From: Phaeacidiphilus oryzae TH49
GTDB taxonomy: Bacteria; Actinomycetota; Actinomycetes; Streptomycetales; Streptomycetaceae
DNA length: 64,000 nucleotides
Direction of reading: 5' to 3'
Assembly (NCBI RefSeq): GCF_000744815.1
Contig: NZ_JQMQ01000004.1
Location: 248,001 to 312,000, forward strand
Shown: piece after piece, positions 37,646 to 60,465 of the stretch
How the letters are laid out: each line of letters begins with the position of its first letter
Numbering within the stretch: position 1 is the first letter of the stretch
Made by a program: the position numbers and the translations under genes
Notes under the pieces: generated by a model
Database searches by the model: none
The model's input: only the letters and a program-made list of their open reading frames with translations
Told to the model about the DNA's origin: nothing

Positions 37646-37670
37646 GGCCGGCTCCTGTCTCTCTGCCGCT

Positions 37671-37709
37671 CTCTCTGCGTTGTCTCTCTGCGTTGTCTCT
37701 CTGCGTTGG
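37671..37709. repeat. Three tandem 13-bp repeats between the E2 and ACP genes
   Basis: CTCTCTGCGTTGT occurs three times in direct succession (the last copy ends in G), with degenerate copies on both sides. The tract fills the 128-bp gap between the E2 stop and the ACP start, where the other junctions of the operon overlap or are 3 bp apart. It may set ACP expression or be a slippage-prone tract. Confidence 0.75.
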
Positions 37710-37773
37710 CACTCTGCCGCTCGCTGTGCTGCTGTGCCTCGGTCGTCTCCGCGCCGGAGCGGGCGCCCCGTGC

Positions 37774-39132
37774 TCAGAGCTGCTCGGGATGCTGGAGCAG
37801 TTCCGCGAGGCGGGTCAGGTAGCGGGCGCCGATGGCGCCGTCGCTGGCGCGGTGGTCGGCGGCGAGCGAGGCGGTCACCGCGGGGTGGGCGAAGACCTGC
37901 CCGTCCGCGGCGAGCGCCCGTTCGCCGATGGTGCCGAAGCCGACCAGGGCGACCTGGGGCGGATGGATGATGCCGAGGACGGTCTCCACGCCGTTGTCGC
38001 CGAGGTTGGTCACGGTGATCGAGGCGCCGGCGGACTCGCTGCCGCGCAGCCGGCCGCGCCGGGCCCGCTCCACGACCCCGCGCAGCGCCTCCATCAGCTG
38101 ATCGAGGGGCAGCCGGTCGGCGTCCCGGATGACGGGGGCCAGGAGGCCGCCGCCGCGCAGCGAGACGATGACCCCGAGGTCCACCCGCGGGGCGGGGGAG
38201 AACCGGTCCTCGATCCAGTGCCCGTTGAGCTCGGGCACCTCGCGGGCGGCCCGCGCCGCGGCCTTGAGCAGCAGCGCTGCGGGCAGCATCCGCCGGCTCA
38301 CCGGCAGTTCGCGGTTGCGGCGGTGCAGCCAGTCCAGTGCGCCGGCCAGGTCGACGGTGGTGGCGAGGTGGTAGTGGGGGATCTGGTGCCAGGAGTGGGT
38401 CATCAGCTCGGCCACGGCGCGCCTGGGGTCCCGGCGCGGCGGGGCGGGACGGGCGCCTGGGGGCCGCGGGCGGCCGGGCGGGCTCGGCGGGGGCCGCCGC
38501 AGGCGGGCACCGACCGAGCGGCGGACGTCCGTGGCCCGGACCGGCAGCCCGGGACCGGCGGGCGCGACCGCCTCCGGCGGCACCCCGAGCTCGGCGGCCA
38601 GCCGGCGGGCGTACGGCGTGATCCGCGGGCGCGGAAGCCCCTCCCGTTCTGAGGTGAACTCCCCGACCCCGGCGGCGCGTTCGACGTCCTGCGCGGTCAC
38701 CGGAGAGCCGTCCGCGCCCAGCGCGGAGAGGTCGACCCCGTACTGCTCGGCCAGCCGCCGCACCAGCGGTGAGTAGTACCGCCGCTGCCCGTCCCCCGAC
38801 GGCGGGTGGGGGACCGGCGGTTCCTGCGGAGGGACCGGGGCGGGCGGGGGCGTGGGCGTCTCCGAAGGAGGCGCCGGGGCCCCCGCGTCCGCCGGGGCCG
38901 GTTCGGTGATCAGGGCCAGGGGCGTGCCCACGGGGACGCGGGTGCCCTCCGGGATGAGGATCCGGGTGAGGACGCCGGTGGTGAAGCACTCGACCTCGAT
39001 GGTGGACTTGTCGGTGTCGACCACCGCGATCACGTCGCCGCGGGTGACGCGCTCGCCGGGGCGGGCCAGCCACTCGGTGACCATCCCCTCGGTCATGTCC
39101 GCGCCCAGCGCCGGCATGCGGAACTCGGCCAT
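37774..39132 (-). CDS. Dihydrolipoamide acyltransferase (E2) of a 2-oxoacid dehydrogenase complex
   Basis: A 452-residue E2. The lipoyl domain is at residues 1-77 with lipoyl-lysine K42 in [10 protein letters not shown] Pro/Ala linker follows, then two successive peripheral-subunit (E3/E1) binding motifs, [20 protein letters not shown] near 119 and [20 protein letters not shown] near 169. The catalytic domain starts near 230 and carries the active-site ADHRASDG near 425. It transfers an acyl group from lipoate to CoA. Two binding domains in tandem are uncommon in E2 proteins. No E3 gene is present here. ATG 39132 is 3 bp after the E1 beta stop. Confidence 0.92.
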
Positions 39133-39135
39133 CGC

Positions 39136-40125
39136 TCAGCCCACCGTCCGCCGCGCCGCCGCGACGATGTCCGCGGCCTGGGGAAGCGCGGCCTCCTCCA
39201 GACCGCGGGCGTAGGGGATCGGCACCTCGGCCGTGCAGACCCGCTCGATCGGCGCGTCCAGCTCGTAGAAGGCGGACTCCGCGATCCGCGCCGCCACCTC
39301 CGCCGAGAGTCCGACGCTGCGCCAGCCCTCGTCGACCACCACCACCCGGTGGGTGCGCCCGACGGTGGCGGTCAGCGCCGGCTGGTCCAGCGGGCGCAGA
39401 GTGCGCAGGTCCAGCACCTCCGCCGAGATCCCGTCGGCGGCCAGCCGCTCCGCCGCCTCCAGTGCCTTGGGCAGCGAGCCGCCGTAGGCGACCAGTGAGA
39501 CGTCCGTGCCGGGGCGGCGCACGGCCGCGTGGGTGATGTCGGCTGCGGCGGAGTCGGCGGGCGAGCCCGGGTCGAGGGCGCCGGCCGTGTTGTAGAGCGA
39601 GCCGTGCTCGAAGACGATGACCGGATCGGGGTCGGCCAGCGCGGCGGCCAGCATGTGCCGCGCGTCGGGCAGCGTCGCCGGCGCCAGCACCCGCAGCCCG
39701 GGGATGTGGGCGTACCACCCCTCCAGGCTGTGCGAGTGCTGGGCCGCGAGCTGGCGGCCGGCTCCGGTGGTCATCCGGATCACCAGCGGCACCTGGATCT
39801 GGCCGCCGGACATGTGCTGGAGAGTGGCCGCGTTGTTGAGGATCTGGTCCAGCGCGAGAAGGCTGAAGTTGACCGTCATGATCTCGACGATCGGCCGCAG
39901 GCCGTTGATCGCCGCGCCGATCCCCGCGCCGACGAAGGCCGACTCGGAGAGCGGGGTGTCCCGGATCCGCTCGGGGCCGAACTCCTCCAGCAGCCCGAGG
40001 CTGACGCCGAAGCAGCCGCCGTAGCGGCCGACGTCCTCGCCCATCAGGAAGACCCGCTCGTCCGCGCGGAGCGCCTCGCGCATCGCCTCGCGCATGGCCT
40101 CGCGGTAGGTGCACTCGACGGTCAT
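39136..40125 (-). CDS. 2-oxoacid (pyruvate/acetoin-type) dehydrogenase E1 component, beta subunit
   Basis: A 329-residue E1 beta. It shows the transketolase-like thiamine diphosphate fold: [26 protein letters not shown] near 8-33, the phenolic-binding region [29 protein letters not shown] near 80-108, and a C-terminal domain with [18 protein letters not shown] and [10 protein letters not shown]. With E1 alpha it decarboxylates a 2-oxoacid (or cleaves acetoin) and loads lipoate on E2. The stretch GEDVG with [12 protein letters not shown] is typical of PDH/acetoin dehydrogenase rather than branched-chain enzymes. The start overlaps the E1 alpha stop (ATGA). Confidence 0.92.
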
Positions 40126-41212
40126 CCGGAGGCCCCTTCCCCCGCTCCGTTCGACGGCGTGGTGACGAACCGCAGCAGGTCGCCGACCGGCTCCGCGGGC
40201 GCCTCCCGGGCGGCCGCCACCGCCGCGTCCAGCTCGGCGGCGACGGCCCGTTCGAGGTCCGTCCAGCCCTCGTCGGTCAGTCGGCCGTCGGCGCGCAGCC
40301 GGCCGGCCAGCAGGTCGATCGGATCGCGCTCCTTCCAGCGGGCGATCTCCTCCTTGCTGCGGTAGCGGTCCGGGTCGTACATCGAGTGGGCCCGGAAGCG
40401 GTACGTACGGAGTTCGAGGAAGTGCGGGCCGGAGCCGGCCCGGATGGACTCGGCCGCCATCCGGGCGGCGTGCTCGACGGCGAGGACGTCCATGCCGTCG
40501 GCGCTCCAGGCGGCCATGCCGTAGCCGGAGGCGCGCAGCGCGAGGTCGGTCTCGGCCTGGGCGCGGTCCAGGGCGGTGCCCATGGCGTAGAGGTTGTTCT
40601 CGCAGACGAGGAGGAGCGGCAGCTCCCACAGCGCGGCCAGGTTGGCCGTCTCGTGGAACTCGCCCTCCGCCACGGCACCGTCGCCGAAGAAGCAGCAGGT
40701 CACCCGCGGCCGGCCGGTCATCCGGTCGGCGAGGGCCAGGCCGGCCGCGAGCGGCAGGCCGCCGCCGACGATGGCGTTGCCCCCGTAGAAGCGGCGGGAG
40801 GTGTCGAAGAGGTGCATCGAGCCGCCCCGGCCCCGGCTGCAGCCGGTGGCCCTGCCGTACATCTCGGCCATCACCGACTCGGCGGGGGTGCCGCGGGCCA
40901 GGGCGTGGCCGTGGTCGCGGTAGGTGGAGACGATCGCGTCGTCCTCGGTGAGCGCCTGGGCGACGCCCACCGCGACGGCCTCCTCGCCGATGCAGAGGTG
41001 GACGAACCCGCGGATCTCGGCCGCGCTGTAGAGCTCCACGCAGCGCTCCTCGAACCGGCGGATCCGCAGCATCTCGTGGAGCAGCAGCATCCGGTGCTTG
41101 CCCGCCTCGCCGCCTCCGGGCTGCGCTGCGGACGCCTTCGCCTCGTGGCTCTGGTCCGTACGCCCGCGCCCCTTCCGGGGCGGCGGGGAGCCGGCTGACT
41201 TCCGGGTCGGGG

Positions 41213-41216
<4 letters not shown>
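40122..41216 (-). CDS. 2-oxoacid (pyruvate/acetoin-type) dehydrogenase E1 component, alpha subunit
   Basis: A 364-residue E1 alpha. A basic leader of about 40 residues is followed by [36 protein letters not shown], the conserved RGHG-equivalent [13 protein letters not shown], and the thiamine-diphosphate motif [31 protein letters not shown] near 200-230. The phosphorylation-loop region [15 protein letters not shown] follows. The ATG at 41216 overlaps the ligase stop (ATGA). The very long frame upstream is a shadow of the ligase gene. The substrate is likely pyruvate or acetoin; this cannot be decided from sequence. Confidence 0.92.
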
Positions 41217-43060
<1,844 letters not shown>

Positions 43061-43154
43061 GGCGGTTCCTCAACGTCCTTGTCGGGAGCGCTCTGCGGGC
43101 GCGGCGGGGACGCGTCCGCCTCCCACCCTGCGCGAGTGCCCCAACCCCCGCCAT

Positions 43155-43168
43155 GGGCCTACCGGACC
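43155..43168. promoter_or_regulatory. Dormancy-type box, copy 1 (GGGCC-N3-CGGACC)
   Basis: GGGCCTACCGGACC, preceded by GCCAT, lies between the kinase gene end and the CoA-ligase start (43060). The same motif occurs at 46990 and, inverted, at 49329. Its GGGxC...GxCC architecture resembles DosR/OsdR operators. It is a candidate control site for the CoA ligase-E1-E2-ACP operon. Confidence 0.6.
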
Positions 43169-43196
43169 GCTCGTGGGCCGGGTGGCCCACCCGGCC

Positions 43197-44948
43197 TCAG
43201 CCCTTGCCGTCGAGCGGAACCCGCCAGTCCAGCCGGGTGCCCTCGCCGTTCTGTCCCGCGGTGAGGTCGAGCCGGCCGCCGAGGTGCTCCGCGCGGTCGG
43301 TGAGGTTGCGCAGGCCGCTGCGGCGGGCCTGGTCGCCCAGGCCGATCCCGTTGTCGGTGACGGTCAGCCGCAGCTGCTCCCCGCCGGCGGTGAGCGCCAC
43401 CTGGGCGCCGGAGGCCCGGGCGTGCCGCGCGATGTTGGTCAGCGCCTCGCCCAGCGCCGCCAGCGCCTCCTCCGCGATCTCCGCGGGCACCTCGCTGTCC
43501 AGCAGCCCCTCCAGACGCAGCGCCGGGGTGAACCCCAGCGCCGGGACCATCCGCTCGACGGTCTGCACGGCCCGGGTGCGCAGGCCCGGCCGGCGGCCGG
43601 TGGCCTCGTGGGCGCGCAGCCCGAAGATGGTGGTGCGGATGATCCGCACGGTCTCGTCCAGATCGTCGATGACCTGCTGGAGGCGCTCCGAGGCGCCCGG
43701 GTTGCCGACCAGCCGGGCCATCCCCTGGAGGGTCATCCCGGAGGCGAAGATCCGCTGGATCGCGAGGTCGTGGAGGTCCCGGGCGATCCGGTCGCGCTCC
43801 TCCAGCAGCGTGATCTGCTCGCCCTCGCGGCGCCGCTCGGCCAGTTCGAGCGCCAGCGCGGCCTGGCCGGCGTAGCCGACCAGCGGCTCCACCTCCTCGG
43901 CCGTGAACTCCGCGCCGCCCCGGCGGCGGGCCAGCAGCAGCACCCCGCGCGGCTCGTCCTCCTCCTCCGCCCCCCGGCTGCCGAGCGGCACCGCCACCCC
44001 CGGGCCCAGCCCCTCGAATCGGGGCGGGCCGGCCGTGATCCGCTCGTCGTTCATCAGATCGCCGCTGATGATCGCCCGGCGGGCGCGGATCGCGGCGCCG
44101 CTGAGCGATCCCTCGAAGGGCAGTACCAGCCCGCGGTGGGTGTCGGCCTGGACGCCCTGGGCTCCGGCGACGGTCAACTCGTCGCCGTCCGGAAGCCGCA
44201 GTGCGACCACGGCGAGATCGGCGGAGGTGATCACCCGGCCGCGTTCCAGGATCATGGTGAGCACCTCTGCCTCGTCCCGCCCGGAGAGGAGGGCCGCGGT
44301 GACCTCCGCGCCGGCCCGCAGCCAGCGCTCGCGCAGCCGGGCCGCCGCGTAGAGGCGGGCGTTGTCCACCGCGATGCCCGCGGCCACGGCCAGGGTGGAG
44401 ACCACCGCCTCGTCCTCCGCGTCGAACTCGGCGCCGCCGTGCTTGTCGGTGAGGTAGAGGTTGCCGAAGACCTGGTCGCGGACCCGGATCGGGACGCCGA
44501 GGAAGGTCTTCATCGGGGGGTGGTTGGCCGGGAAGCCGTAGGAGGCCGGGTGCTGGGCGATCTCCGGTATCCGCAGCGGCTGCGGGTTGCGGATCAGCTC
44601 GCCGAGGAGGCCGTGGCCGGTGGGGAGCGGGCCGATCCGCTCGATCTCGGCCTCGCTCACCCCGACGGTGAGGAACTGGGCCAGCCGCTTGCCGTCCTCG
44701 CCGATCACCCCGAGCGCCCCGTACTCGGCGTCCACCAGGCTGACCGCGGCCTCGACGATATGCCGCAGCACCTCGCCGAGTTCGAGGTCGCGACCGATCC
44801 CGAGCACCGCCTCCAGCAGGGTGTGCACCCGGTCGCGGGTCTCCCGCACCATCGTCAGCCGGTCCTGGAGCTCCATCAGAAGCTCGTCCAGACGGAGCTG
44901 TGACGGTCCGCCGGACGGTGCCAGCGGTACTTCGCCTTCGCTTCCCAT
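43197..44948 (-). CDS. GAF-GAF sensor histidine kinase, DosS/DevS/OsdK-like
   Basis: A 583-residue soluble kinase. GAF domain 1 is at about 55-200, GAF domain 2 at about 220-370, then a HisKA_3 phosphoacceptor (ERDRIARDLHDLAIQRIF, His393) and an HATPase domain with TDNGIGL near 535 and the G2 box. In GAF 1 the block NHPPMKTFLGVPIRVRDQVFGNLYLTDK contains His143, at the position of the haem-ligating histidine of DosS/DosT, so it may sense O2, NO or redox. ATG 44948 is preferred because GGGGGA lies 7 nt upstream; an upstream in-frame start adds 16 unlikely residues. No response regulator gene is in the window. It is expected to control the surrounding stress/dormancy genes. Confidence 0.9.
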   Translation of the reverse strand: MGSEGEVPLAPSGGPSQLRLDELLMELQDRLTMVRETRDRVHTLLEAVLGIGRDLELGEVLRHIVEAAVSLVDAEYGALGVIGEDGKRLAQFLTVGVSEAEIERIGPLPTGHGLLGELIRNPQPLRIPEIAQHPASYGFPANHPPMKTFLGVPIRVRDQVFGNLYLTDKHGGAEFDAEDEAVVSTLAVAAGIAVDNARLYAAARLRERWLRAGAEVTAALLSGRDEAEVLTMILERGRVITSADLAVVALRLPDGDELTVAGAQGVQADTHRGLVLPFEGSLSGAAIRARRAIISGDLMNDERITAGPPRFEGLGPGVAVPLGSRGAEEEDEPRGVLLLARRRGGAEFTAEEVEPLVGYAGQAALALELAERRREGEQITLLEERDRIARDLHDLAIQRIFASGMTLQGMARLVGNPGASERLQQVIDDLDETVRIIRTTIFGLRAHEATGRRPGLRTRAVQTVERMVPALGFTPALRLEGLLDSEVPAEIAEEALAALGEALTNIARHARASGAQVALTAGGEQLRLTVTDNGIGLGDQARRSGLRNLTDRAEHLGGRLDLTAGQNGEGTRLDWRVPLDGKG

Positions 44949-45132
44949 CGAGAATCCCCCACAGGATCCACACGCAGCTGACATTCGTCCCGACACACGC
45001 TAGCCGGTTTCGCACGGCCAGTCAGGAGCGGCCCCATCAGGGCCCTTCGGCCCGCCGCGGGACCCCGCACGGCACCTCATCGGACCGGGTGGCCATGTCC
45101 AGCATGGGACCGGGAAGGGAGGCACCACCATC

Positions 45133-45909
45133 ATGCCTGAAGCCGCCGATCGCCCCAGAGACCGGAACCGCCAGTCCCGTCGGAGCGCCCACCACCGGGG
45201 TGCCCACCACCGGAGCGGCGCCCAGCCGCGCCGCCCCGGGCTCCGCCTGCCCGGCCGCAAGGGCCGCGGCCGGTCCTCGCCGCGGATGCCGCGCTCCCGC
45301 CCCGGTCCCGTGCGGACCCTGCGCCGGTTCGCCGGCGCCGAGCACAACCCGCTGCTGCGCACCTTCGACCGCAGGCGCAGCGCGCTGGCGCTGCTGACCG
45401 CCGTACTGCTGTGCGGCGCGGTGGCCGCGGGGGTGCTCGCCGGGCTGATCGGCTCCCGTCTGGAGCAGGGGCTGGCGGACCGCCAGGTGGCTCAGCGGCA
45501 GCGCACCACCGCGCTTGTCACCTCGGTGAGCAGTGCCGGGCACAACTCCGGTACCGAGATCTCCGACGGGGGCAATGCCGGGAGCCAGAACACCACGACG
45601 GCGTACGGGGTCTGGACCGGCCCCGACGGACGCCGGCACTCCGGGCGGATCACGGTGCCCTCCGGCACCGCCGCGGGCAGCCGGCTGACCGTCTGGACCG
45701 ACCGGCGGGGCGTCGCCGTACCGGCCCCCACCAGCGCCTCCACCGTGGTCGCCGACGGGACGCTGACCGGCTTCGTGACCTTCGCGATCACCGGCTCCGC
45801 GGTGCTGGGCGGGGCGGCCCTGGCCGGCCTCCGCATCGATCGCCGCGCCGCGGACGCCTGGGCCCGCGAGTGGTCCCGCGTCGAGCCGACCTGGACCCGC
45901 CGCCGCTGA
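45133..45909 (+). CDS. Rv1733c-like transmembrane protein
   Basis: A 258-residue protein. A long Arg-rich cytoplasmic N terminus (residues 1 to about 80) is followed by a first membrane helix (ALALLTAVLLCGAVAAGVLAGLIG), an extracytoplasmic domain with YGVWTGPDGRRHSGRITVPSGTAAGSRLTVWTDRRG, a second helix near 212-232, and a short tail with WAREWSRVEPTW. This two-helix layout and the GPDG-R-x-G-x-V pattern match the Rv1733c family of the mycobacterial DosR regulon. Its function is unknown, perhaps envelope adaptation. AGGGAGG precedes the ATG. It is divergent from the sensor kinase, fitting a shared regulon. Confidence 0.82.
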   Translation: MPEAADRPRDRNRQSRRSAHHRGAHHRSGAQPRRPGLRLPGRKGRGRSSPRMPRSRPGPVRTLRRFAGAEHNPLLRTFDRRRSALALLTAVLLCGAVAAGVLAGLIGSRLEQGLADRQVAQRQRTTALVTSVSSAGHNSGTEISDGGNAGSQNTTTAYGVWTGPDGRRHSGRITVPSGTAAGSRLTVWTDRRGVAVPAPTSASTVVADGTLTGFVTFAITGSAVLGGAALAGLRIDRRAADAWAREWSRVEPTWTRRR

Positions 45910-45917
45910 ACCGCCGT

Positions 45918-45938
45918 CCGGCCCGCGGATCGGGCCGG
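45918..45938. terminator. Hairpin between convergent Rv1733c-like and universal-stress genes
   Basis: CCGGCCC and GGGCCGG form a 7-bp stem around a 7-nt loop, 8 bp after one stop and 25 bp before the other. No U-tract is seen. Confidence 0.5.
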
Positions 45939-45963
45939 GCCACCGGTCAGGCGCGCCGGAGGG

Positions 45964-46863
45964 TCAGGCCGCGCCGGACGAGGGTCGGCTCAGAGGCTGC
46001 CAGGGGCCGGGCACCCGGACGGGCAGCGGGGCCGGCTCCGGGACCACGGCCACCGTCGTGCGGGAGTAGCGCAGGACGGCGCGGACCACCGGGCCGAGCT
46101 CGGACGGGGAGCAGGGCGCCGCCCGGCGGCCGACGACCAGCAGGCCGGCCCGGGTGGCGGCGGCGACCAGCGCCCGCCCCGGACGGTCCGAGCGCACCTC
46201 CTTGACCACCCGCACCTCCGGATAGCGCTTGCGGAGCAGCGCCAGCGGCCCGGCCAGCGGATCGTCCTCCGGGTCCGCCGAGGCCGGCCGGGCGTCCACC
46301 GCGCGCAGCGTCCCCTGCCGGCGGGCGGCCGCCGCGAAGGCGTACTCCAGTGCCGCCTCGGCGGGGGCGCGGGAGTCCACGCCGACCACGATCTCCGGCA
46401 CCGGCGGCCCGGCCCCGTCGTCCTTCAGCAGGGCGGGAGCCGGCGGAAGCGGCCGGACCAGCAGGACGGGGCTGTAGGCACGGGCGACGGTGTGGAGGCC
46501 GACCCGTCCGGGCAGCAGTCCCGGCGGCGCGGAGGCCCGCACGGAGCTGCCGACGACCACCAGCTCCGCCTCCTCGCTGGCCGCCACCAGCGCGCTGCCG
46601 GCGGTGTCCACCACCTCCACGCCGCTCACCTCCAGGCCGCGGTGCCGGCGGACGAGCTCGCTCACCACCTCGTGGAGGCCTCGGCCCCGCTCCCCCTCCT
46701 CCCGGCGGAAGGCGGAGGCCGGCAGCAGATGGGGCAGCAGCGGCCGGGCGTGGAGGAGGCGCAGCGGAGTGCCGCGCTCCAGGGCCTCGCGGGCCGCCCG
46801 TTCGGCGGCCGCGAGGCTCTCCGGAGACCCGTCGAAGCCGGCGACCACCGGTGCCGAACGCAT
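45964..46863 (-). CDS. Universal stress protein, two tandem UspA domains
   Basis: A 299-residue protein made of two Usp folds: domain 1 from VVAGFDGSPESLAAAERAAREAL (residue 5) to SPVLLVRPLP near 150, and domain 2 from IVVGVDSRAPAEAALEYAFAAA near 168 to TTVAVVPEPAP near 280. The ATP-loop G-x2-G-x9-GS pattern is degraded in both (VVGSSVRASAPPGLLPGR; VVGRRAAPCSPSELG). Tandem Usp proteins are typical DosR/OsdR-regulon members linked to hypoxic survival. ATG 46863 has GAGGAGG 9 nt upstream; ATG 46869 is too close to that site. It is divergent from the CBS-Hsp20 operon with a shared box at 46990. Confidence 0.87.
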   Translation of the reverse strand: MRSAPVVAGFDGSPESLAAAERAAREALERGTPLRLLHARPLLPHLLPASAFRREEGERGRGLHEVVSELVRRHRGLEVSGVEVVDTAGSALVAASEEAELVVVGSSVRASAPPGLLPGRVGLHTVARAYSPVLLVRPLPPAPALLKDDGAGPPVPEIVVGVDSRAPAEAALEYAFAAAARRQGTLRAVDARPASADPEDDPLAGPLALLRKRYPEVRVVKEVRSDRPGRALVAAATRAGLLVVGRRAAPCSPSELGPVVRAVLRYSRTTVAVVPEPAPLPVRVPGPWQPLSRPSSGAA

Positions 46864-46989
46864 GACCATCGACCTCCTCGTGGCGCTGTGCGGTGCTCCG
46901 CGTGCGCTCTGGGGCGCTCTGGGGCGCCCTGCCGTGCTCCGCGGTTCCCCCTCCAGCCACCGTGCGCAGACCACCCGGCCGGCGGCCAT

Positions 46990-47004
46990 GGGCCGGTCGG
47001 ACCC
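46990..47004. promoter_or_regulatory. Dormancy-type box, copy 2 (GGGCC-N3-CGGACC)
   Basis: GGGCCGGTCGGACCC, preceded by GCCAT exactly as in copy 1, is centred between the divergent Usp (start 46863) and CBS (start 47115) genes. Over 19 positions the two copies differ only in three central bases. One site could serve both promoters. Confidence 0.65.
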
Positions 47005-47114
47005 GCGAGGTGCCCCCCGGCCCCTGCCCCGGGCCGGGTGCGCTGGCCAAGCTGGCACTGAGCCCGAGGACCGGCAGCGGGCCACCCCCGGAGGGGGGCA
47101 GCGATGGACACCGA

Positions 47115-47615
47115 GTGGGGGCCGACCGGGGGGAGTGGCGGGACGCCGTCCCGCCGGAGGTGCCGCGGGTGCGCGAGGTGATGCGCCCGGACGCCCACCC
47201 GGTGCTGGAGAGCACCACCACGGCGGCGGTCCTGCGGATCATGATCCAGCACCGGCTGCAGCACGTCCCGGTGGTGGACGGGCGCGGGCGGGTGCTCGGC
47301 ACGGCCCACGTCGTCGAGGTGCTGTCCCAGGCGCTGGCCGCCCCCGGGCAGCCCGTCGGCGCCGTCATGACCCGCCCCGCCGTCACCGTCCGGCCCGGGA
47401 CCGCGGTCCCGGTCGCCGCCCGGGTGGCGGCCAGGCACGGGCTGGCGCTGCTGTACGTCACCGGACCGGACGGCGAGCTGCTGGGCACCTTCCGCCCGGC
47501 GGACGCCCGCAGGATCGGCGCCAGTACCGGCGCCAGGACCGGCGCCCCGCGCCGGCCCGACCCCAGTGGAACCGAGAAGAAGGACAAGGAGCGAGAGCCA
47601 TGGCCGATTCGCTGA
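47115..47615 (+). CDS. CBS-domain protein
   Basis: A 166-residue protein with two CBS motifs: VREVMRPDAHPVLESTTTAAVLRIMIQHRLQHVPVVDGRGRVLGTAHVVEVL and VGAVMTRPAVTVRPGTAVPVAARVAARHGLALLYVTGPDGELLGTFRPADARR. The pair forms a Bateman module that usually binds adenine nucleotides. GTG 47115 is the best start; the region before it is not conserved in character. The tail is Arg/Thr-rich and its end overlaps the Hsp20 start by 16 nt. Similar proteins belong to the DosR regulon in mycobacteria. Confidence 0.75.
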   Translation: MGADRGEWRDAVPPEVPRVREVMRPDAHPVLESTTTAAVLRIMIQHRLQHVPVVDGRGRVLGTAHVVEVLSQALAAPGQPVGAVMTRPAVTVRPGTAVPVAARVAARHGLALLYVTGPDGELLGTFRPADARRIGASTGARTGAPRRPDPSGTEKKDKEREPWPIR

Positions 47616-48049
47616 TCCCGCGCCACCGGACGCTCTTCCCCGACCTGATGCAGTGGCTGGAGACCGGGTTCCCCGGCTTCCCGACCCTGCCGGTGACGGG
47701 CGGCGGCGCCGAGGCGCACGCCATCCCGATCGAGGTCGACGAGGACGAGAAGGCGGGCGCCTTCGTGGTCCGCGCCGAGCTCCCCGGGCTGGACCCGCAG
47801 CACGACATAGAGATCACGGTGGACGGCGACCTGCTGGCGATACGGGCCACCCACACCGACAGCCGCACCGAGAAGGGCCGCTCCGAGTTCCGCTACGGCT
47901 CCTTCCAGCGGGTGCTCAGGCTTCCCGCGCAGATCCCCGAGAAGGGCGTCAAGGCCGAGTACCGGGCGGGCATCCTCACCCTCACCGTGCCGATGCCGGT
48001 GAAGCCGAAGGAGGCCGCCCGCACGATCAAGGTCGAGCACCTGGACTGA
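47600..48049 (+). CDS. Hsp20/alpha-crystallin small heat-shock protein
   Basis: A 149-residue chaperone. The alpha-crystallin domain is at about 45-135: IPIEVDEDEKAGAFVVRAELPGLDPQHDIEITVDGDLLAIRATH, then SEFRYGSFQRVLRLPAQIPEKGVKAEYRAGILTLTVPMP. The N terminus (LFPDLMQWLETGFPGFP) is the oligomerisation arm. It prevents aggregation of unfolded proteins without ATP. The Acr/HspX protein is a hallmark of the DosR regulon, fitting the neighbours. AAGGAG lies 8 nt before the ATG, inside the end of the CBS gene. Confidence 0.93.
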   Translation: MADSLIPRHRTLFPDLMQWLETGFPGFPTLPVTGGGAEAHAIPIEVDEDEKAGAFVVRAELPGLDPQHDIEITVDGDLLAIRATHTDSRTEKGRSEFRYGSFQRVLRLPAQIPEKGVKAEYRAGILTLTVPMPVKPKEAARTIKVEHLD

Positions 48050-48090
48050 ACCGGGAGCGATCCGTTCGAAGCAGGAGGAGGTGACCCCGG

Positions 48091-48441
48091 ATGCCGGGGA
48101 CCGCCCGAACGATTCGGCCGCGGCCGCGGCCGCTGGTGCCACGGCAGGCACCGGCGCCGGCGCCCGCGCCCACCCCGCTCTCCGCCGTGCTCAGCGCGGC
48201 GCCGGAGCGGATGCGCACCCGGGCCGGCCGCGAGCTCGGCGTCGGGCACGTCCCCGGCGACCCCGAGGGCGGCATCCCCGGGGGAGTGCTCCTCGACGTG
48301 GTCCTGGCACTCGACGAGCACGGCGGAGTGCTGCGGGCCGGCCTCACCCCCGGTGAGGCCCGCCGGCTCGCCCGCGCGCTGCTCGTCCAGGCGGACCACG
48401 CCGAGGCGGCGGGCGCCGGCCGGGTGCTCGCCCGCGGGTGA
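48091..48441 (+). CDS. Small hypothetical protein (116 aa) after hsp20
   Basis: AGGAGGAGG lies 7-8 nt before the ATG, a very strong ribosome site. The N terminus (about 30 residues) is Pro/Ala/Arg-rich and probably disordered. The rest forms a compact alpha/beta pattern (GGVLLDVVLALDEHGGVLRAGLTPGEARRLARALLVQADHAEAAG). I do not recognise the family. It is the third gene of the CBS-Hsp20 operon, 41 bp after Hsp20, and ends before a strong terminator, so it likely belongs to the same stress response. Confidence 0.65.
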   Translation: MPGTARTIRPRPRPLVPRQAPAPAPAPTPLSAVLSAAPERMRTRAGRELGVGHVPGDPEGGIPGGVLLDVVLALDEHGGVLRAGLTPGEARRLARALLVQADHAEAAGAGRVLARG

Positions 48442-48457
48442 CCGCCGCAGAACGGCC

Positions 48458-48492
48458 GGAGGCCGGGCCCCGACGACCGGGGCCCGGCCTCC
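48458..48492. terminator. Strong bidirectional hairpin after the CBS-Hsp20 operon
   Basis: GGAGGCCGGGCCCC and its exact complement form a 14-bp stem with a 7-nt loop, between convergent genes ending at 48441 and 48540. Confidence 0.8.
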
Positions 48493-48516
48493 GCCGGTTC
48501 CGCTCCAACCTCCGGA

Positions 48517-48535
48517 CCCTCCGGCTTCCGGAGGG
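48517..48535. terminator. Second hairpin, facing the leftward CBS-BON gene
   Basis: CCCTCCGG and CCGGAGGG form an 8-bp stem with a 3-nt loop directly after the stop of the leftward gene (48540). Confidence 0.6.
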
Positions 48536-48539
48536 AGCT

Positions 48540-49235
48540 TCAGAACTGCGGGCCGACCTGCGGCGGTTGCGGCGCCCCCGGCCGGTCCGGGGCGGAGAGG
48601 TGGTCGACGACCGAGACCACCCCGTCCACCCCGCGGGCCAGCCGGGTGGCGATGGCCGCCGTGGCGGCGTCCGGCGCGCGCCCGTCCAGGACGGCCATCC
48701 CCTGCTCGACGCTGACCTCGATCTCGCCCTCCCGCAGCACCGGCAGGTGCTCGGCCAGCTCGGCCTCGATCGCGGCGGCGATGTCCTCGTCCGAGCGCAG
48801 GAAGGCGGTCAGCAGGTCGCTGCGGCTGACGATCCCGATCGGCCGCCCGGACCTGGCCACCACCGGCAGCCGCTTGACGTGGTGACGGAGCATCAGCCGG
48901 GCCGCCTCGCTGAGCGAGGCCTCCGGGCCGACGGTGACCGCGGGTGCGGTCATCAGCTCGCCGACCGTGCTGCCCGCCGACTTCTCGATCTCGGCCAGCG
49001 CCTCCGGATGGAGCATCAGCCGCCGCAGCTTCGGGGGCCGGCCCTGGTACGCCTCCTTGGGCACCAGGTCGGCCGTCGAGACCACGCCGATCACCCGGCC
49101 CTCGCCGTCCAGCACCGGGGCGGCGCTGATCCGGCGGCCGGCGAGCAGCGTCACCGCCTGCTTGAAGGTGGTGCCGCGGAACACCGTGACGACCTCCGTG
49201 GTCATCACGTCTCGCACGGTCAGGAATGCGGTCAT
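48540..49235 (-). CDS. CBS-BON domain protein
   Basis: A 231-residue protein. Two CBS motifs are at about 6-60 and 88-145 (VRDVMTTEVVTVFRGTTFKQAVTLLAGRRISAAPVLDGEGRVIGVVSTADLV; VGELMTAPAVTVGPEASLSEAARLMLRHHVKRLPVV), followed by a BON domain at about 155-215 (EDIAAAIEAELAEHLP...VLDGRAPDAATAAIATRLARGVDGVVSVVDHL). CBS pairs bind nucleotides; BON domains bind phospholipids or partner proteins, so a membrane-linked energy sensor is possible. AGGAGG lies 8 nt before ATG 49235. The in-frame extension far upstream is a shadow of the opposite gene. A paralogue is encoded at 52334. Confidence 0.88.
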   Translation of the reverse strand: MTAFLTVRDVMTTEVVTVFRGTTFKQAVTLLAGRRISAAPVLDGEGRVIGVVSTADLVPKEAYQGRPPKLRRLMLHPEALAEIEKSAGSTVGELMTAPAVTVGPEASLSEAARLMLRHHVKRLPVVARSGRPIGIVSRSDLLTAFLRSDEDIAAAIEAELAEHLPVLREGEIEVSVEQGMAVLDGRAPDAATAAIATRLARGVDGVVSVVDHLSAPDRPGAPQPPQVGPQF

Positions 49236-49328
49236 GGGTCGGTCCTCCTGCGGGTCTCTGCTTGCGCTGTCGCCATGCTGGGCCCGCGCGGGGGCCCGGC
49301 AGCAGGGGCCGCCCCGCCCCGGAACGGG

Positions 49329-49342
49329 GGTCCGATAGGCCC
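49329..49342. promoter_or_regulatory. Dormancy-type box, copy 3 (inverted)
   Basis: GGTCCGATAGGCCC is the reverse complement of GGGCCTATCGGACC, which differs from copy 1 at one base. It lies between the divergent CBS-BON gene (start 49235) and the Pat-type/hydrogenase series (start 49485). Confidence 0.65.
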
Positions 49343-49484
49343 TGTGCCGGAGCAGGGGCAGCGGGGAGATTGGGCATGGAGGGCCGGGCCCGTCGAAGCC
49401 GGGCGCCCCGTGTTCCCGGCTGGCCGTCCCCGCCCGGGCCGGGCCCTCTTCCCGGCATACGCAGTGTGAGGAGTGTGCGTGTCC

Positions 49485-52325
49485 ATGTCTTCGGCGCCCC
49501 CTGTACCCGAGGCACCCAGGCCTGTCGAGGCGTTGCTCGCCGACGGCTCCACCGCGCTGATCCGCCCGCTGGCCTCCGGCGACCGCGAGGCCGTCCGGGA
49601 GCTGCACTCCGTCCACATGTCCGAGGAGAGCCGGCGGCTCCGGTTCTTCGGCGCCAGCCGGCGCGCCCCCGAGGAGGCCGCCCGCCGGCTGTGCGCGCCG
49701 CCGCGCCCCGGCTTCCTGGCGCTGGGCGCCTGGGTGGGCGAGGAACTGGTGGGGGTCGTCGAGTACTCGGTGTACGACGGGCAGGCGGCGCCGCTGCGTC
49801 CCGGCGAGACCCCCGGCACGGCCGCCGAACTGGCCGTCGCGGTGGCCGAGGAGTGGCACCACCGGGGCGTCGGCACGCTGCTGATCGAGCATCTGCTGCA
49901 CGCCGCCCGGGAGCGCGGGCTGCGGGTCATCGAGGCCGAGGCGCTGGCCGACAACCACGCCGTCCACAAGGTCTTCGCCGACCTCGGCTTGCACGTCCAC
50001 CGCCGCTGGGAGCACGGGCAGGTGCGGATCAGCGTCGACCTGGAGGAGCAGCAGGACGAGGACTACCGGCGGGCCGTGGACGAGCGCGGCCGGACGGCCG
50101 ACGTGGCCAGCCTGATGCCGCTGCTGCGCCCGCGCTCGGTGGCGGTGGTGGGGGCCTCGCGGCGGCCGGGCTCGGTGGGGCAGAGCGTGCTGCGGCGGAT
50201 CCGGGACGGCGGCTTCGCCGGCGCGCTGTACGCGGTCAACCCCTACGCGGAGCGGATCGCGGACACCGACACCTACCCGTCGGTGGGCACCCTGCCGGTG
50301 GTCTGCGACCTCGCACTGCTGGCCGTCCCGCCGGTCGTGGTGCCCAGCGCCGCCGAGGAGTGCGGGCGCGCCGGGACCAGGGCACTGGTGGTGCTGACCG
50401 CCGGGCTCGAGGACGCGCAGGCGCGGCGGCTGCTGCAGATCTGCCGCCGTTACAGCATGCGGCTGGTCGGCCCGAACTGCCTGGGCATCGCGCAGACCGA
50501 TCCGGAGGTCAGGCTCGCCGCGAACTTCGCCGGTACCTATCCGGCGGCCGGCGAGGCGGGGATCGCGGTGCAGTCCGGAGGGGTGGGGATCGCCCTCCTC
50601 CAGCTGCTCTCCCGGCTCGGCGTCGGCGTCTCCAGCTTCGTCTCGCTCGGCGACAAGTACGACGTCTCCGGCAACGACCTCCTCCAGTGGTGGGAGAGCG
50701 ACGGGCGGACCAAGCTGGCCCTGCTCCACCTGGAGTCCTTCGGCAACCCGCGGGCCTTCTCCCGTACCGCCCGCCGGGTCTCCCGCAGGATGCCCGTGCT
50801 GACCGTGGACGCCGGGCGCTCGAACGCCGGGCGGCGGGCCGCCGCCTCGCACAGCGCGGCCGCCGCCACCGCGACCGTCACCCGCCGGGCGCTGTTCACC
50901 CAGGCCGGGATCACCGCCACCGACTCGATCGCCGAACTGGTCGAGACCGCGGCCCTGTTCGCCAGCCAGCCGCTGCCCGCCGGCTCCGGCCGGGTGGCCG
51001 TCGTGAGCAACGCCGGCGGAGTGGCCGTGCTGGCCGCCGACGCCTGCGCGGAGGCCGGACTGACCGTCCCCGAGCTGCCCCCGGACCTGGTCGGCGAACT
51101 CCTCGCGGTGCTGCCCGAGGGCGCCCACGCGGCCAACCCGGTGGACATCACCGCGGAGGCGGACGCCGCCGAACTGGACGCGGCGCTCGCCGTGCTGAAC
51201 CGCAGCCCGCTGATCGACTCGGTGCTGGTCTGCCTGGCCCCCACCGCCCTCGGCGGGGCCCCCGGGCGGGCGCTGCGCTCCGGACCGGCCCGGCGGCGGC
51301 ATCCGGTGGCCGCCGTGGTGCTCGGGCAGAGCGAGTCCGTCGAGCTGCTGCCCACCGACGACGGCGGCCACGTCCCGGTGTACGCCGATCCGCAGCAGGC
51401 CGCCCGGGCGCTGGCGCACGCCGCCGCCCGGGCCCGGCACCTGGCCGAACCCGAGGGCGTGGAGCCCGAGCTGCCGGACGTCCAGCCCGGACGGGCGGCG
51501 GCCGAGGCGAGCGCCTTCCTGGCCGCCCACCCGGAGGGCGGCCTCCTCGACCCGGCGGCCACCGCCTCCCTGCTGGGCTGCTACGGCATCCCGACCGGGC
51601 CCTCGGTCTGGCTGCGGGCCGACGAGCTCGGCGAGGCCGAGGACGGCGCGGTGCTCGGCGGCGCCCTCGCCGACGCGGTCGCCCGGCTCACGCCGCTGGC
51701 CCACCGCGGGCGGCTGGTGGCCAAGGCGTACTGGCCGGGCCAGGTGCACAAGAGCGAGTTCGGTGCGGTCCGCACCGACCTCGAAGGGATCGCCCAGGTC
51801 CGGGCCGCGGTACGGGACTTCCGCACCCGCTTCGCCGGCCGGCTGGACGGGGTGGTGCTGCAGCCGACCGCCGCCCCCGGCATCGAGCTCTTCGCCGGCG
51901 TGGCCCAGGACCGGGTCTTCGGCCCGCTGGTGCTCTTCGGCCTCGGTGGCACCGCGGCCGACCTGCTGGACGACCGGGCCGCCCGGCTGGCCCCGCTCAC
52001 CGACACCGACGTCGACGCGATGCTCACCGGGGTGCACGCCACCCCGCTGCTCTTCGGCTACCGCGGCACCCCCAAGCCCGACCTGGCCGCCCTCGAACAT
52101 CTGCTGGCCCGGCTGTCCCGGCTGGCCACCGACCTCCCGCAGCTGGCGGAGGCCGACCTCAACCCGGTGATCGCCGGCCCCGACGGGGCGGTGTGCGTGG
52201 ACGCCCGGCTGCGGCTGCTGCCGGTCCGGCCCTTCGACCCCTATCTGCGCCGGCTGCGGGAACTCCCCGAGCCGCCCGAAGAACCGACCCACTACGGCGC
52301 CCCGGACGGCGCCGGTCAGGAGTGA
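49485..52325 (+). CDS. GNAT plus NDP-forming acyl-CoA ligase-like protein (Pat-type protein acetyltransferase)
   Basis: A protein of about 946 residues. The N-terminal GNAT is at about 25-190 (TALIRPLASGDREAVRELHSVH; acetyl-CoA loop WHHRGVGTLLIEHLLHAARERG). A CoA-binding Rossmann domain (SVAVVGASRRPGSVGQSVLRRI near 220), a ligase-like region with SHSAAAATATV, and an ATP-grasp domain (VAKAYWPGQVHKSEFGAV near 750; ELFAGVAQDRVFGPLVLFGLGG near 805) follow. GNAT-first order is that of the Streptomyces PatA type, which acetylates acyl-CoA synthetases on lysine. The CoA ligase at 41213 has the matching SGK lysine. The start is ATG 49485 or GTG 49479; GAGGAG lies at 49468-49473. It opens the rightward series of the hydrogenase genes. 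Confidence 0.87.
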   Translation: MSSAPPVPEAPRPVEALLADGSTALIRPLASGDREAVRELHSVHMSEESRRLRFFGASRRAPEEAARRLCAPPRPGFLALGAWVGEELVGVVEYSVYDGQAAPLRPGETPGTAAELAVAVAEEWHHRGVGTLLIEHLLHAARERGLRVIEAEALADNHAVHKVFADLGLHVHRRWEHGQVRISVDLEEQQDEDYRRAVDERGRTADVASLMPLLRPRSVAVVGASRRPGSVGQSVLRRIRDGGFAGALYAVNPYAERIADTDTYPSVGTLPVVCDLALLAVPPVVVPSAAEECGRAGTRALVVLTAGLEDAQARRLLQICRRYSMRLVGPNCLGIAQTDPEVRLAANFAGTYPAAGEAGIAVQSGGVGIALLQLLSRLGVGVSSFVSLGDKYDVSGNDLLQWWESDGRTKLALLHLESFGNPRAFSRTARRVSRRMPVLTVDAGRSNAGRRAAASHSAAAATATVTRRALFTQAGITATDSIAELVETAALFASQPLPAGSGRVAVVSNAGGVAVLAADACAEAGLTVPELPPDLVGELLAVLPEGAHAANPVDITAEADAAELDAALAVLNRSPLIDSVLVCLAPTALGGAPGRALRSGPARRRHPVAAVVLGQSESVELLPTDDGGHVPVYADPQQAARALAHAAARARHLAEPEGVEPELPDVQPGRAAAEASAFLAAHPEGGLLDPAATASLLGCYGIPTGPSVWLRADELGEAEDGAVLGGALADAVARLTPLAHRGRLVAKAYWPGQVHKSEFGAVRTDLEGIAQVRAAVRDFRTRFAGRLDGVVLQPTAAPGIELFAGVAQDRVFGPLVLFGLGGTAADLLDDRAARLAPLTDTDVDAMLTGVHATPLLFGYRGTPKPDLAALEHLLARLSRLATDLPQLAEADLNPVIAGPDGAVCVDARLRLLPVRPFDPYLRRLRELPEPPEEPTHYGAPDGAGQE

Positions 52326-52333
52326 CGAGCGCC

Positions 52334-53071
52334 ATGACGCGACACCGCACCGTAGGCGACGTGATGACCCATGAGGTGGTCACCGCCCGCATCGACACCC
52401 CGTTCAAGGAGATCGCCGAGCTGCTCGCGCGCAACGACGTCTCCGCCGTCCCCGTGGTGGACGACCAGGGCCGGCCGGTGGGCCTGGTCTCCGAGGCCGA
52501 CCTGCTGCGCAAGGAGGTCGCCAAGGCGGACCCCGAGGGGCACCTCCCGCCGGTGCGGATGGCCGCCCATCTGCGCGCCCGCGCCGAGGGCGACGAGGCC
52601 GGCGAGGTGATGAGCCGGCCGGTCTTCACCGCCCGCCCCGAGTGGAACATCGTCCAGGCCACCAGGGAGCTGGTCCGCCGCGGCGTGAAGCGGCTGGTGG
52701 TGGTGGACGAGGCGGGCCGGATGGTCGGCGTCGTCTCCCGGGCCGACCTGCTGCGGATCTTCCTGCGCACCGACACCGGGATCCGCGAGGAGATCGTCCG
52801 CGAGGTGCTCGGCGAGACCCTCTTCCTCAGCCAGGAGCAGGTCGCGGTGCAGGTCGCGGAGGGCGTGGTGACGCTGCGCGGCGAGGTCCAGGAGAAGTCC
52901 ACGGTCGGCATCGTCGAGCGGCTGGTGCGGGCGGTGGACGGCGTGGTCGCCGTCCACAACCTGATCGAGTTCGAGTTCGACGATAGCAAGGCCGACCTCG
53001 GCCAGTCCGCGATCCACGGTGTGCTCGGCCACCAGCCCCGCGGGCACCGCACGGAGGAAGCGCAGTCATGA
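52334..53071 (+). CDS. CBS-BON domain protein
   Basis: A 245-residue protein. CBS motifs are at about 7-65 and 92-150 (VGDVMTHEVVTARIDTPFKEIAELLARNDVSAVPVVDDQGRPVGLVSEADLL; AGEVMSRPVFTARPEWNIVQATRELVRRGVKRLVVVDEAGRMVGVVSRADLL), then BON at about 155-220 (GIREEIVREVLGETL...VVTLRGEVQEKSTVGIVERLVRAVDGVVAVHNLI). It resembles the protein at 48540 in architecture. It starts 8 bp after the Pat-type gene and overlaps the first hydrogenase gene by 4 nt, so it is part of the hydrogenase operon. Confidence 0.88.
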   Translation: MTRHRTVGDVMTHEVVTARIDTPFKEIAELLARNDVSAVPVVDDQGRPVGLVSEADLLRKEVAKADPEGHLPPVRMAAHLRARAEGDEAGEVMSRPVFTARPEWNIVQATRELVRRGVKRLVVVDEAGRMVGVVSRADLLRIFLRTDTGIREEIVREVLGETLFLSQEQVAVQVAEGVVTLRGEVQEKSTVGIVERLVRAVDGVVAVHNLIEFEFDDSKADLGQSAIHGVLGHQPRGHRTEEAQS

Positions 53072-54267
53072 ACGACGCCCCGGTGGAGTTCGGACTCGAC
53101 GGGCTGCGGCAGCTGGTCGCCGCCCTGCGCGAGCGCGGGCTGACCGTGGTCGGGCCCACCGTCAGGGACGGGGCCGTCGTCCTCGGCGAGCTGGCCTCGG
53201 CCGACGAGCTGCCGTTCGGTACCGGGGTGGCGGTGGAGGCCGGGCGGTACCGGCTGCGGCCGCTGCCGGAGGGGGACCGGCGGGCCTTCGCCCACAGCGC
53301 GGGACCGCAGTCCTGGAAGAACTACCTCCACCCGGCCCGGGAGCGGTTGTGGAGCGCGGACCGGGCGGAGGACGGCGGGTTCACCGTCCGTCCGGACGAG
53401 GAGCCGGCCCCGCGGTACGCGTTCCTCGGCGTCCGCCCCTGCGATCTGCGGGCGATCGCCGTACTGGACCGGGTGCTGGTCGGCGGCCGGTACGAGCAGC
53501 CGTCCTACCGCGACCGCCGCTCGGGGGCGTTCGTGGTCGTCGTGGAGTGCGGCGAGCCCGGCGCGGTCTGCTTCTGCGCCTCCATGGGCACCGGCCCCGG
53601 TCTGCCCGGCGACGCCGCCGGATACGACCTGGCGCTGACCGAGATCGGCGGTCCGGACGGTGAGTTGACCTATCTGGCCCGGGCCGGCAGCGAGGAGGGC
53701 CAGGAGCTGCTGGACGAGATCGGCGAGCGGCGGGCCGCCGCCGAGGCCACCCTCACCGCAGCCGCCGAGACGGTGGACCGCGCGGCCGAGCGGATGGGCC
53801 GGGCGATGGAGACCGACGGGCTGCGCGGCCTGCTGGCCGGCTCGCTGGACTCGCCGCACTGGGACGAGGTCGCCTCCCGCTGCCTGGCCTGCGCCAACTG
53901 CACCCTGGTCTGCCCCACCTGCTTCTGCACCACCACCGAGGAGGTCACCGACCTCACCGGCGAGCACGCCGAGCGCTGGCAGCGCTGGGACTCCTGCTTC
54001 GACCTGGAGTCCACCCACCTGGCCGGCGCCGGACCGGTCCGGGGCTCCGTGCGCAGCCGGTACCGCCAGTGGCTGACCCACAAACTCGGCACCTGGCACG
54101 ACCAGTTCGGCTCCTCCGGCTGCGTCGGCTGCGGCCGCTGCATCGCCTGGTGCCCCGCCGGGATCGACCTCACCGCCGAGGTCGCGGCGCTGAGGGCGGA
54201 GCACGACCGACCGAGCGGGGAAGCGAGCAAGGAACCGAGCGAGGAGGACCCATGCCGTACGGCCTGA
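53068..54267 (+). CDS. Group 3b [NiFe] hydrogenase, iron-sulfur (beta) subunit
   Basis: A 399-residue subunit of a soluble NADP-linked hydrogenase (sulfhydrogenase type). It has an AsrA-like N-terminal part ([24 protein letters not shown] near 112-135, [22 protein letters not shown] near 150) and two C-terminal 4Fe-4S motifs, [16 protein letters not shown] near 270-285 and [16 protein letters not shown] near 352-367. It passes electrons between the small subunit and the flavin subunit. The start overlaps the CBS-BON stop (ATGA). The C-terminal about 25 residues are hydrophilic and overlap the next gene by 16 nt. Confidence 0.92.
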
Positions 54268-55160
54268 GCCAGGCCGCCACCCTCACCGCCGCACGCGGCC
54301 CCGCCGCACGCCCGGCGCTGGTGCCGGCGCCCTTCCAGGTGGTGGAGCGGCTGGAGGAGAACGCGGAGACGGTCACCCTGGGCGTGCAGCCGGCCGACGG
54401 CGAGCCGCTGCCCTTCCGGCCCGGCCAGTTCGCGATGCTCTACGCCTTCGGGGTCGGCGAGATCGCGATGTCCGTCAGCGGGCTTCCGGACCCGACCGAC
54501 GGCGGGCTCCAGCATCACACCGTGCGGGCGGTCGGCGCGGTCAGCCGGGCGCTCTGCGCCACCGGCCCCGGCTCGGTGGTCGGGGTGCGCGGCCCGTTCG
54601 GCAACGACTGGACGCTCGGCGCCACCGGTGCCGAGCGCACCCCGCTCGGCACCGAGCCCGGCGCCGACCTGCTGGTCGTCGCCGGGGGTCTGGGCCTGGC
54701 CCCGGTCCGCCCGGTGATCGAGGCCGCGCTCGCCGAGCCCGAGCACTACGGGCAGCTGGCGGTGCTCTTCGGGGCGCGCGACCCGGGGGGCCTCATCTAC
54801 CACGAGGAACTGCTGCGCTGGGGCACCGGGGCCGAGGTGCGGGTCACCGTCGACGAGGCGGGGGAGGAGTGGACCGGCCGGACCGGCCTGGTCACCACCC
54901 TCCTCGACACGGTGCGGCTGCGGCCCGACGCCACCACGGCCTTCGTCTGCGGCCCGGAGCCGATGATGCGCGGCACCGCCTCGGCGCTGCTGGAGCGCGG
55001 GATGGACGCCGGGCGGATCAGGGTCTCGCTGGAGCGCAACATGCGCTGCGGCACCGGCTGGTGCGGGCACTGCCAGCTCGGCGAGGTGCTGATCTGCCGG
55101 GACGGCCCGGTCTTCGACTGGCACGAGGCCGCAGGACTGCTCGCCGTACGGGAACGCTGA
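54252..55160 (+). CDS. Group 3b [NiFe] hydrogenase, FAD/NAD(P)-binding (gamma) subunit
   Basis: A 302-residue ferredoxin-NADP reductase-like subunit. The FAD domain contains [23 protein letters not shown] near 55-77. The NAD(P) domain contains [21 protein letters not shown] near 137-157 and [20 protein letters not shown] near 230. The C-terminal 2Fe-2S site is [21 protein letters not shown] near 260-280. It exchanges hydride with NADP(H). GAGGAGGA directly before the ATG is a strong ribosome site inside the end of the preceding gene. Confidence 0.92.
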
Positions 55161-55171
55161 GGAGCCGTCAG

Positions 55172-56098: not shown

Positions 56099-57395
<1,297 letters not shown>

Positions 57396-57399
<4 letters not shown>

Positions 57400-60460: not shown

Positions 60461-60465
60461 CCGCC

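Follow-up and report, generated by a model that had tools for sequence, protein, structure and literature searches.

In mycobacteria, genes for universal stress proteins (usp), Hsp20 small heat-shock proteins and CBS-domain proteins are of the kinds that belong to the regulon of the response regulator DevR/DosR. DevR of Mycobacterium tuberculosis binds adjacent primary and secondary boxes cooperatively (PMC3029386), and in Mycobacterium smegmatis a NiFe hydrogenase lies beside a DosR-type cluster and is induced at low oxygen (PMC3029386, PMC2799521). The counterpart of this regulator in Streptomyces coelicolor is OsdR, whose box has the published consensus AGGGCCGATCGGCCCT, a 16-bp palindrome that was tested by gel shift on predicted S. 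coelicolor sites (PMC5069765). Here, a stretch of 64,000 nucleotides from Phaeacidiphilus oryzae TH49 (contig NZ_JQMQ01000004.1, positions 248,001 to 312,000; hereafter the window) is described, in which an operator-like string, GGGCC-N3-CGGACC, recurs in promoter regions of a stress and hydrogenase island of approximately 30 kb.

The island shares features with both of these systems. With the OsdR regulon of S. coelicolor it has in common the 16-bp palindrome at similar upstream distances, OsdR- and OsdK-like proteins, and genes of the usp, pyruvate-phosphate-dikinase and nitroreductase types (PMC5069765). With the mycobacterial regulon it shares a DevR-like regulator and a DevS/DosT-type GAF kinase, along with Rv1733c-family, Acg/Rv3131-family, usp, Hsp20 and CBS genes (PMC3029386, PMC2799521). 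There are also differences. The predicted P. oryzae box is of the streptomycete GGGCC/GGNCC form, unlike that of mycobacterial DevR/DosR. The kinase gene, which forms one operon with osdR in S. coelicolor (PMC5069765), is located about 24 kb from it in P. oryzae, within one island. Unlike the S. coelicolor regulon as described, the island includes a NiFe hydrogenase series and an operon for acetate–coenzyme A (CoA) ligase and a 2-oxoacid dehydrogenase; the words hydrogenase, acetyl-CoA, tandem and spacing are absent from the main text of that report (PMC5069765). The type of switch is thus already known, and the P. oryzae island adds another case of it.

The recurring string matches the published S. 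coelicolor OsdR box in its letters, and very probably serves as the operator for a response regulator of the OsdR (DevR/DosR) type. The original prediction, which had recognized the string at 43155–43168 and 46990–47003 on the plus strand and at 49329–49342 on the minus strand, was exact in these coordinates. Candidate boxes were scored with two matrices. The first was built from the 25 distinct OsdR sites predicted in S. coelicolor and published in Table 1 of PMC5069765, which themselves score 11.2–18.1, and a cut-off of 11 was used for a hit. The refined matrix was built from 204 sites from relatives, picked with the first matrix and with the P. oryzae genome excluded. The boxes in the island promoters are as follows:

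43154–43169: weak box TGGGCCTACCGGACCG, preceding the acetate–CoA ligase/dehydrogenase operon by about 100 bp
45039–45054: strong predicted box of the OsdR/DevR type AGGGCCCTTCGGCCCG, in the region from which the kinase and Rv1733c-like genes diverge
46989–47004: predicted box of the OsdR/DevR type TGGGCCGGTCGGACCC, between the divergent usp and CBS-hsp20 genes
49328–49343: strong predicted box of the OsdR/DevR type GGGTCCGATAGGCCCT, between the divergent CBS-BON gene and Pat/hydrogenase series

The box at 45039 ranks first of the 64 kb with both matrices (14.6 with the first, 14.2 with the refined), and its centre lies at approximately −98 relative to the start of the kinase gene and −87 relative to that of the Rv1733c-like gene. 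This best-scoring box of the window had been omitted from the original list of sites, which instead gave a degenerate relative of the motif at 45082–45118 in front of the Rv1733c-like gene. That candidate was rejected as an operator, as it has no meaningful score (rank 484 at 45081 and rank 18793 at 45105 with the refined matrix), and the real box of this promoter is the one at 45039–45054. The box at 49328 scores 13.0 (rank 2) with the first matrix and 11.9 (rank 4) with the refined one, and that at 46989 scores 11.0 (rank 5) and 13.55 (rank 2), respectively. Two other high scores with the first matrix fall inside genes: the third-best (12.5, at 40255) lies within the E1 alpha gene and was rejected as an operator, and the fourth-best (11.1, at 41737) lies within the acetate–CoA ligase gene.

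Strings of the GGGCC/GGACC kind are common in DNA of 75% G+C, and the three near promoters could have been picked from among many by chance. Taken alone, the string is indeed at or below chance frequency: with up to two mismatches it has 220 matches in the window against 216 expected by shuffling, and across the whole genome the looser GGGCCN4GGACC has 203 matches against 400 for a reversed-pattern control, and is thus not enriched genome-wide. Accordingly, the string was dropped as evidence by itself, and it is placement that carries the evidence. Five copies without mismatch occur in the window, namely the three reported ones, one at 41975 inside the acetate–CoA ligase gene and one at 30602. 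The last of these (30602–30615) lies outside the island in a region without clear coding signal, and scores −0.4 with the OsdR matrix.

Placement was assessed over intergenic regions of 60–700 bp at the score cut of 11, with the island taken as 37000–64000 of the window and with 16 stretches of 20 kb from the P. oryzae genome as background. Because gene starts come from a simple codon-composition caller and from tblastn extrapolation, the distances given are approximations and the set of called genes is incomplete. A box is present in all three divergent regions of the island and in none of the 32 in the control stretches (1 in 6545), nor in any of the four divergent regions in positions 1–37000 of the window; other control regions rarely hold one (same-direction, 2 of 89; convergent, 1 of 24). 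Hits scoring at least 11 are barely denser in the window (5 in 64 kb) than in the controls (15 in 318 kb), and what sets the window apart is therefore the location of the hits. When the best scores were summed over four island regions (43061–43196, 44949–45132, 46867–47114 and 49236–49484), the total was matched by one of 20,000 random four-region sets from the control stretches and by one of 2000 permuted matrices, although these four regions were chosen because of the finding and the true surprise is smaller than such figures suggest. Against this placement, and against the conservation of boxes upstream of homologous genes in relatives, chance is scarcely credible as the source of the set as a whole, even with the frequency of loose matches and the exact copy at 30602 in its favour. 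For the 43155 site alone, chance is possible.

Conservation was examined at 100 related loci, of which 20 were found by the kinase (selected from a longer list) and 80 by Pat homology (the best 80 of 156). Loci chosen in this way are by design islands, and the related species among them do not count as independent samples. Promoters were taken as the interval from −300 to +15 bp around the predicted start, and a hit was a score of at least 11. A box was found at 58 of 78 pat promoters, compared with 2 for the reversed matrix, and at 63 of 129 promoters of usp homologues (4 reversed). Among the remaining genes, it was present at 14 of 46 kinase promoters, 4 of 11 hsp20 promoters, 8 of 23 hydB promoters and 3 of 8 Rv1733c-like promoters, in each case with none for the reversed matrix, and at 20 of 104 promoters of CBS-BON genes of at least 40% identity (1 reversed). 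The median position of the box for pat in relatives is −83, and in the first-listed Pat relative (L082) it lies at −148, like the position of approximately −149 in P. oryzae. The pentamer GCCAT that had been noted before the first two sites is present there but absent from the logo of the relatives, which has T at 11% and A at 19% at the two places preceding the core; it was not retained as part of the motif.

The same palindromic character that marks an operator could also mark a hairpin terminator or another G+C-rich structure that is no protein site, and one such element adjoins the weakest of the boxes:

43176–43196, minus strand: palindrome of two perfect 10-bp arms around a 1-bp centre, directly adjoining the stop codon of the kinase gene

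This palindrome folds into a hairpin with an energy ordinary for its composition (z −1.6), and is the probable terminator hairpin of the kinase gene. Of five near-perfect palindromes of the OsdR kind that were examined elsewhere in the genome, four (L193, L197, L201 and L207) are situated just 3′ of predicted gene ends, with that of L207 also upstream of the next gene. Box scans of such G+C-rich genomes thus also catch hairpins, and genome-wide palindromes are unfit as a regulon list. The boxes at 45039, 46989 and 49328, however, sit where two gene starts diverge, a place in which a terminator would not be expected. In the islands of relatives, hits occur in 68 of 114 divergent regions and 91 of 340 same-direction regions but in only 4 of 77 convergent ones, and the RNA folding of the four P. 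oryzae stretches is ordinary (z −0.2 to −1.6). On the strength of this folding and placement, a terminator or hairpin origin was ruled out for the divergent sites, and as a general account of the palindromes it is very improbable.

An operator of the OsdR type also has its likely regulator and sensor close at hand. The gene for an OsdR/DevR-like regulator (C4:316613–317350) belongs to the same island, 4.6 kb past the right end of the window. Its match at C4:316628–317281 is 72% identical to a regulator of Streptomyces coelicoflavus (L138) that is itself encoded beside its kinase, and its best PDB match is DevR (3c3w; E 1.3e-74), aligned through the helix-turn-helix. A DosS-like kinase gene had been placed among the sites, and the gene found there encodes a protein with a DevS-type GAF domain:

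43197–44948, minus strand: GAF-GAF-HisKA_3 sensor kinase of the DevS/DosT type (Pfam and PDB matches)

The PDB matches of this kinase are 2vzw and the DevS entries 2y8h, 2y79, 4ynr and 2w3d, with its GAF domain best matched by 2vzw (E 6.5e-49) and then by DevS 2y8h (E 7.4e-47). The entry 2vzw, labelled only as a probable histidine kinase, is one that we take to be DosT. The assignment to the DevS/DosT type is based on the DevS-type GAF domain with its HPPM..FLGVP segment, the His of which is presumably the heme ligand, together with the HisKA_3 and ATPase domains. A second DevS-like kinase (C5:3633488; 42%) is encoded elsewhere in the genome.

The genome also encodes a second DevR-like regulator (C5:3489441; 67%), and in a variant of the OsdR reading, with which its probability overlaps, this paralogue would be the main reader of the boxes or would share them with the island-encoded protein. 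There is precedent in S. coelicolor, where OsdK has two cognate regulators, OsdR and the orphan SCO3818 (PMC5069765). The island-encoded regulator is nevertheless closer to OsdR (72% versus 67%) and is linked to the sites, and the variant is considered rather unlikely.

The paralogue is one of several observations that weigh against the reading of the boxes as OsdR operators, as does the frequency of the loose string given above. In the genome as a whole, the near-perfect palindrome has 35 matches against 64 for the reversed control, with both strands searched and self-complementary copies counted twice. In the island, the 46989 box barely clears the cut at 11.03, just under the lowest of the matrix's own sites; at a cut of 13, only one divergent hit is counted. 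The 43154 box scores 6.1 with the first matrix, below the cut, and ranks 16 in the window with the refined one. A strong box is also lacking in the promoter of osdR itself, where the top score is 5.5 at about 100 bp upstream; in S. coelicolor, osdR has a box at −81 (PMC5069765). Among the relatives, hits are missing from 20 of the 78 Pat promoters and from 32 of the 46 promoters of the kinase, and no box precedes the sole acetate–CoA ligase gene, or the sole E2 gene, among the 100 island loci. Lastly, the fetched stretches of the 80 Pat loci contain the kinase in 24 cases, a DevR-like regulator in 28 and either in 34, which leaves 46 with neither, some of these being short contigs.

Despite these points, the match to the OsdR consensus, the placement in all three divergent promoter regions of the island, the promoters of relatives, the nearby regulator, the DevS-type kinase and a gene content like that of DosR regulons together support a DosR/OsdR-type operator common to the stress island, as the original prediction had proposed. 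The underlying observation was confirmed in part: its three strings are present, the 45082 relative fell away, and the 43155 site, although located upstream of the CoA ligase operon as described, is weak as an OsdR box. In a search of 60 relatives, a strong box lies at −52 to −98 in four of the eight closest homologous loci of the acetate–CoA ligase gene and is absent from the other four, and the P. oryzae site is thus plausibly a decayed or low-affinity version of the box. Neighbouring genes do include members of the Rv1733c family and, outside the window, of the Acg/Rv3131 family. The further claim that all of the genes served are of a kind controlled by DosR/OsdR goes too far, as an acetate–CoA ligase operon is not among the OsdR targets listed for S. 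coelicolor (PMC5069765).

The boxes of relatives often seem to be paired. When the surroundings of 192 strong sites in relatives were scored with the S. coelicolor matrix alone and without a permuted control, 53 second boxes fell at 19–23 bp, compared with 51 across the 57 distances from 24 to 80 bp. The spacing peaks at 20 bp (19 cases), 22 bp (17) and 21 bp (13), and the pairs come from 44 loci, mostly from usp (24) and pat (15) promoters. The refined matrix gives a similar picture: for second boxes at 19–23 bp scoring at least 6 there are 31 real cases against 0–2 in eight new permutations. At a score of at least 4, there are 52, against 48 in one of eight permuted matrices and 0–4 in the others; the permutations were not forced to differ from the real matrix, which may explain the 48. 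In the window itself, all partners are weak. A possible partner at 47009 (3.3) is 20 bp from the 46989 box and another at 49305 (5.1) is 23 bp from the 49328 box, whereas a possible second box at 43174 (6.0) overlaps the 43176–43196 palindrome. No partner box was found near 45039.

Together, these features suggest how an OsdR-type switch would operate in the island. When oxygen falls or nitric oxide rises, the putative heme-GAF kinase encoded at 43197–44948 would phosphorylate OsdR. Phosphorylated OsdR dimers would then bind the 16-bp palindrome approximately 85–150 bp upstream of start codons, in relatives often as two dimers on boxes spaced by 20–22 bp, or two helical turns. Binding would activate the three divergent units (kinase/Rv1733c-like, usp/CBS-hsp20 and CBS-BON/Pat-hydrogenase) and, more weakly, the acetate–CoA ligase operon, such that low oxygen probably induces the stress genes and the genes of hydrogen metabolism in the cluster jointly.

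In this way, the stress/hydrogenase island of a streptomycete relative is tied to a known low-oxygen switch. Possibly new are the family-wide pairing of boxes 20–22 bp apart and the presence of boxes before the acetate–CoA ligase gene and the Pat/NiFe-hydrogenase series. The former suggests that pairs of boxes two helical turns apart are widespread in such promoters, and the latter that the OsdR regulon takes in acetate activation, protein acetylation and hydrogen metabolism. A broader generalization is offered tentatively, with slightly more doubt than confidence: the OsdR regulon of Streptomycetaceae and their near relatives would act through helically phased double boxes and would cover a hydrogen/acetyl-CoA energy programme composed of the Pat acetyltransferase, the NiFe hydrogenase, and acetate–CoA ligase with its 2-oxoacid dehydrogenase. 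If so, the fermentation-like dormancy metabolism of these soil actinobacteria would be governed by a switch of the mycobacterial type.

The other genes of the island are as follows:

37774–41216, minus strand: 2-oxoacid dehydrogenase genes, downstream of the ligase gene
37774–39132, minus strand: E2
39136–40125, minus strand: E1 beta
40122–41216, minus strand: E1 alpha (E1_dh, PF00676)
41213–43060, minus strand: acetate–CoA ligase, AMP-forming (NCBIfam NF003313, 820.5 bits, cut-off 729)
45133–45909, plus strand: Rv1733c family protein (NF050032, 124 bits, cut-off 80)
45964–46869, minus strand: universal stress protein with two Usp domains (PF00582, two stretches)
47115–47615, plus strand: CBS-domain protein with an uncertain start codon (PF00571, matched in the enclosing frame 46893–47615)
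47600–48049, plus strand: Hsp20 small heat-shock protein (PF00011)
48540–49235, minus strand: CBS-BON protein (PF00571, PF04972)
49485–52325, plus strand: Pat-like fusion of a GNAT domain with NDP-forming acyl-CoA ligase domains (Pfam)
52334–63055, plus strand: closely spaced series of a second CBS-BON-like gene, NiFe hydrogenase and maturation genes

Of these, E1 beta, E2, the second CBS-BON-like gene and the maturation genes were named from sequence only. The Pat-like protein falls below the cut-offs of both NCBIfam TIGR02717 and the Pat model. The hydrogenase subunits are sulfhydrogenase-like (PF01058, PF00374), with the ShyA/HydA and ShyB/HydB models also below cut-off. The usp gene may start at the ATG at 46869 or at that at 46863. 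In front of the CBS gene, the stretch 47091–47130 has a purine-rich sequence resembling a ribosome-binding site before an ATG at 47104, which is out of frame with the gene and near a run of G; an uncertain start, or possibly a sequence error near this run, may be responsible. The open reading frame of 116 amino acids that follows hsp20 (48091–48441) has no Pfam or NCBIfam match at E 0.001. Also within the dormancy-type island, a run of genes on one strand (37388–43060) comprises the ligase, E1 alpha, E1 beta and E2 genes and, after a gap, a small carrier-protein-like gene (PF00550).

Beyond the hydrogenase series, positions 63070–64815 (L173:71–1816), which run past the window, encode a pyruvate phosphate dikinase-like protein of 581 amino acids that scores below the cut-off. 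It matches only positions 336–865 of the 865 in the profile, and the N-terminal nucleotide-binding part therefore seems absent. Farther along the same stretch, boxes are located at L173:1884 (13.2), about 100 bp before a CBS-BON gene, at L173:6393 (8.7), before an Acg-family gene, and at L173:17149 (11.8), before a further gene. The Acg/Rv3131-family gene, outside the window, scores above its curated cut-off, as does the Rv1733c-family gene. Elsewhere in the genome, two OsdR-like palindromes lie 69 bp apart (L205 and L206; C5:3216817 and 3216886), and the genes flanking the first resemble, judged from their sequences alone, those for a flavohemoprotein and an Rrf2-type regulator.

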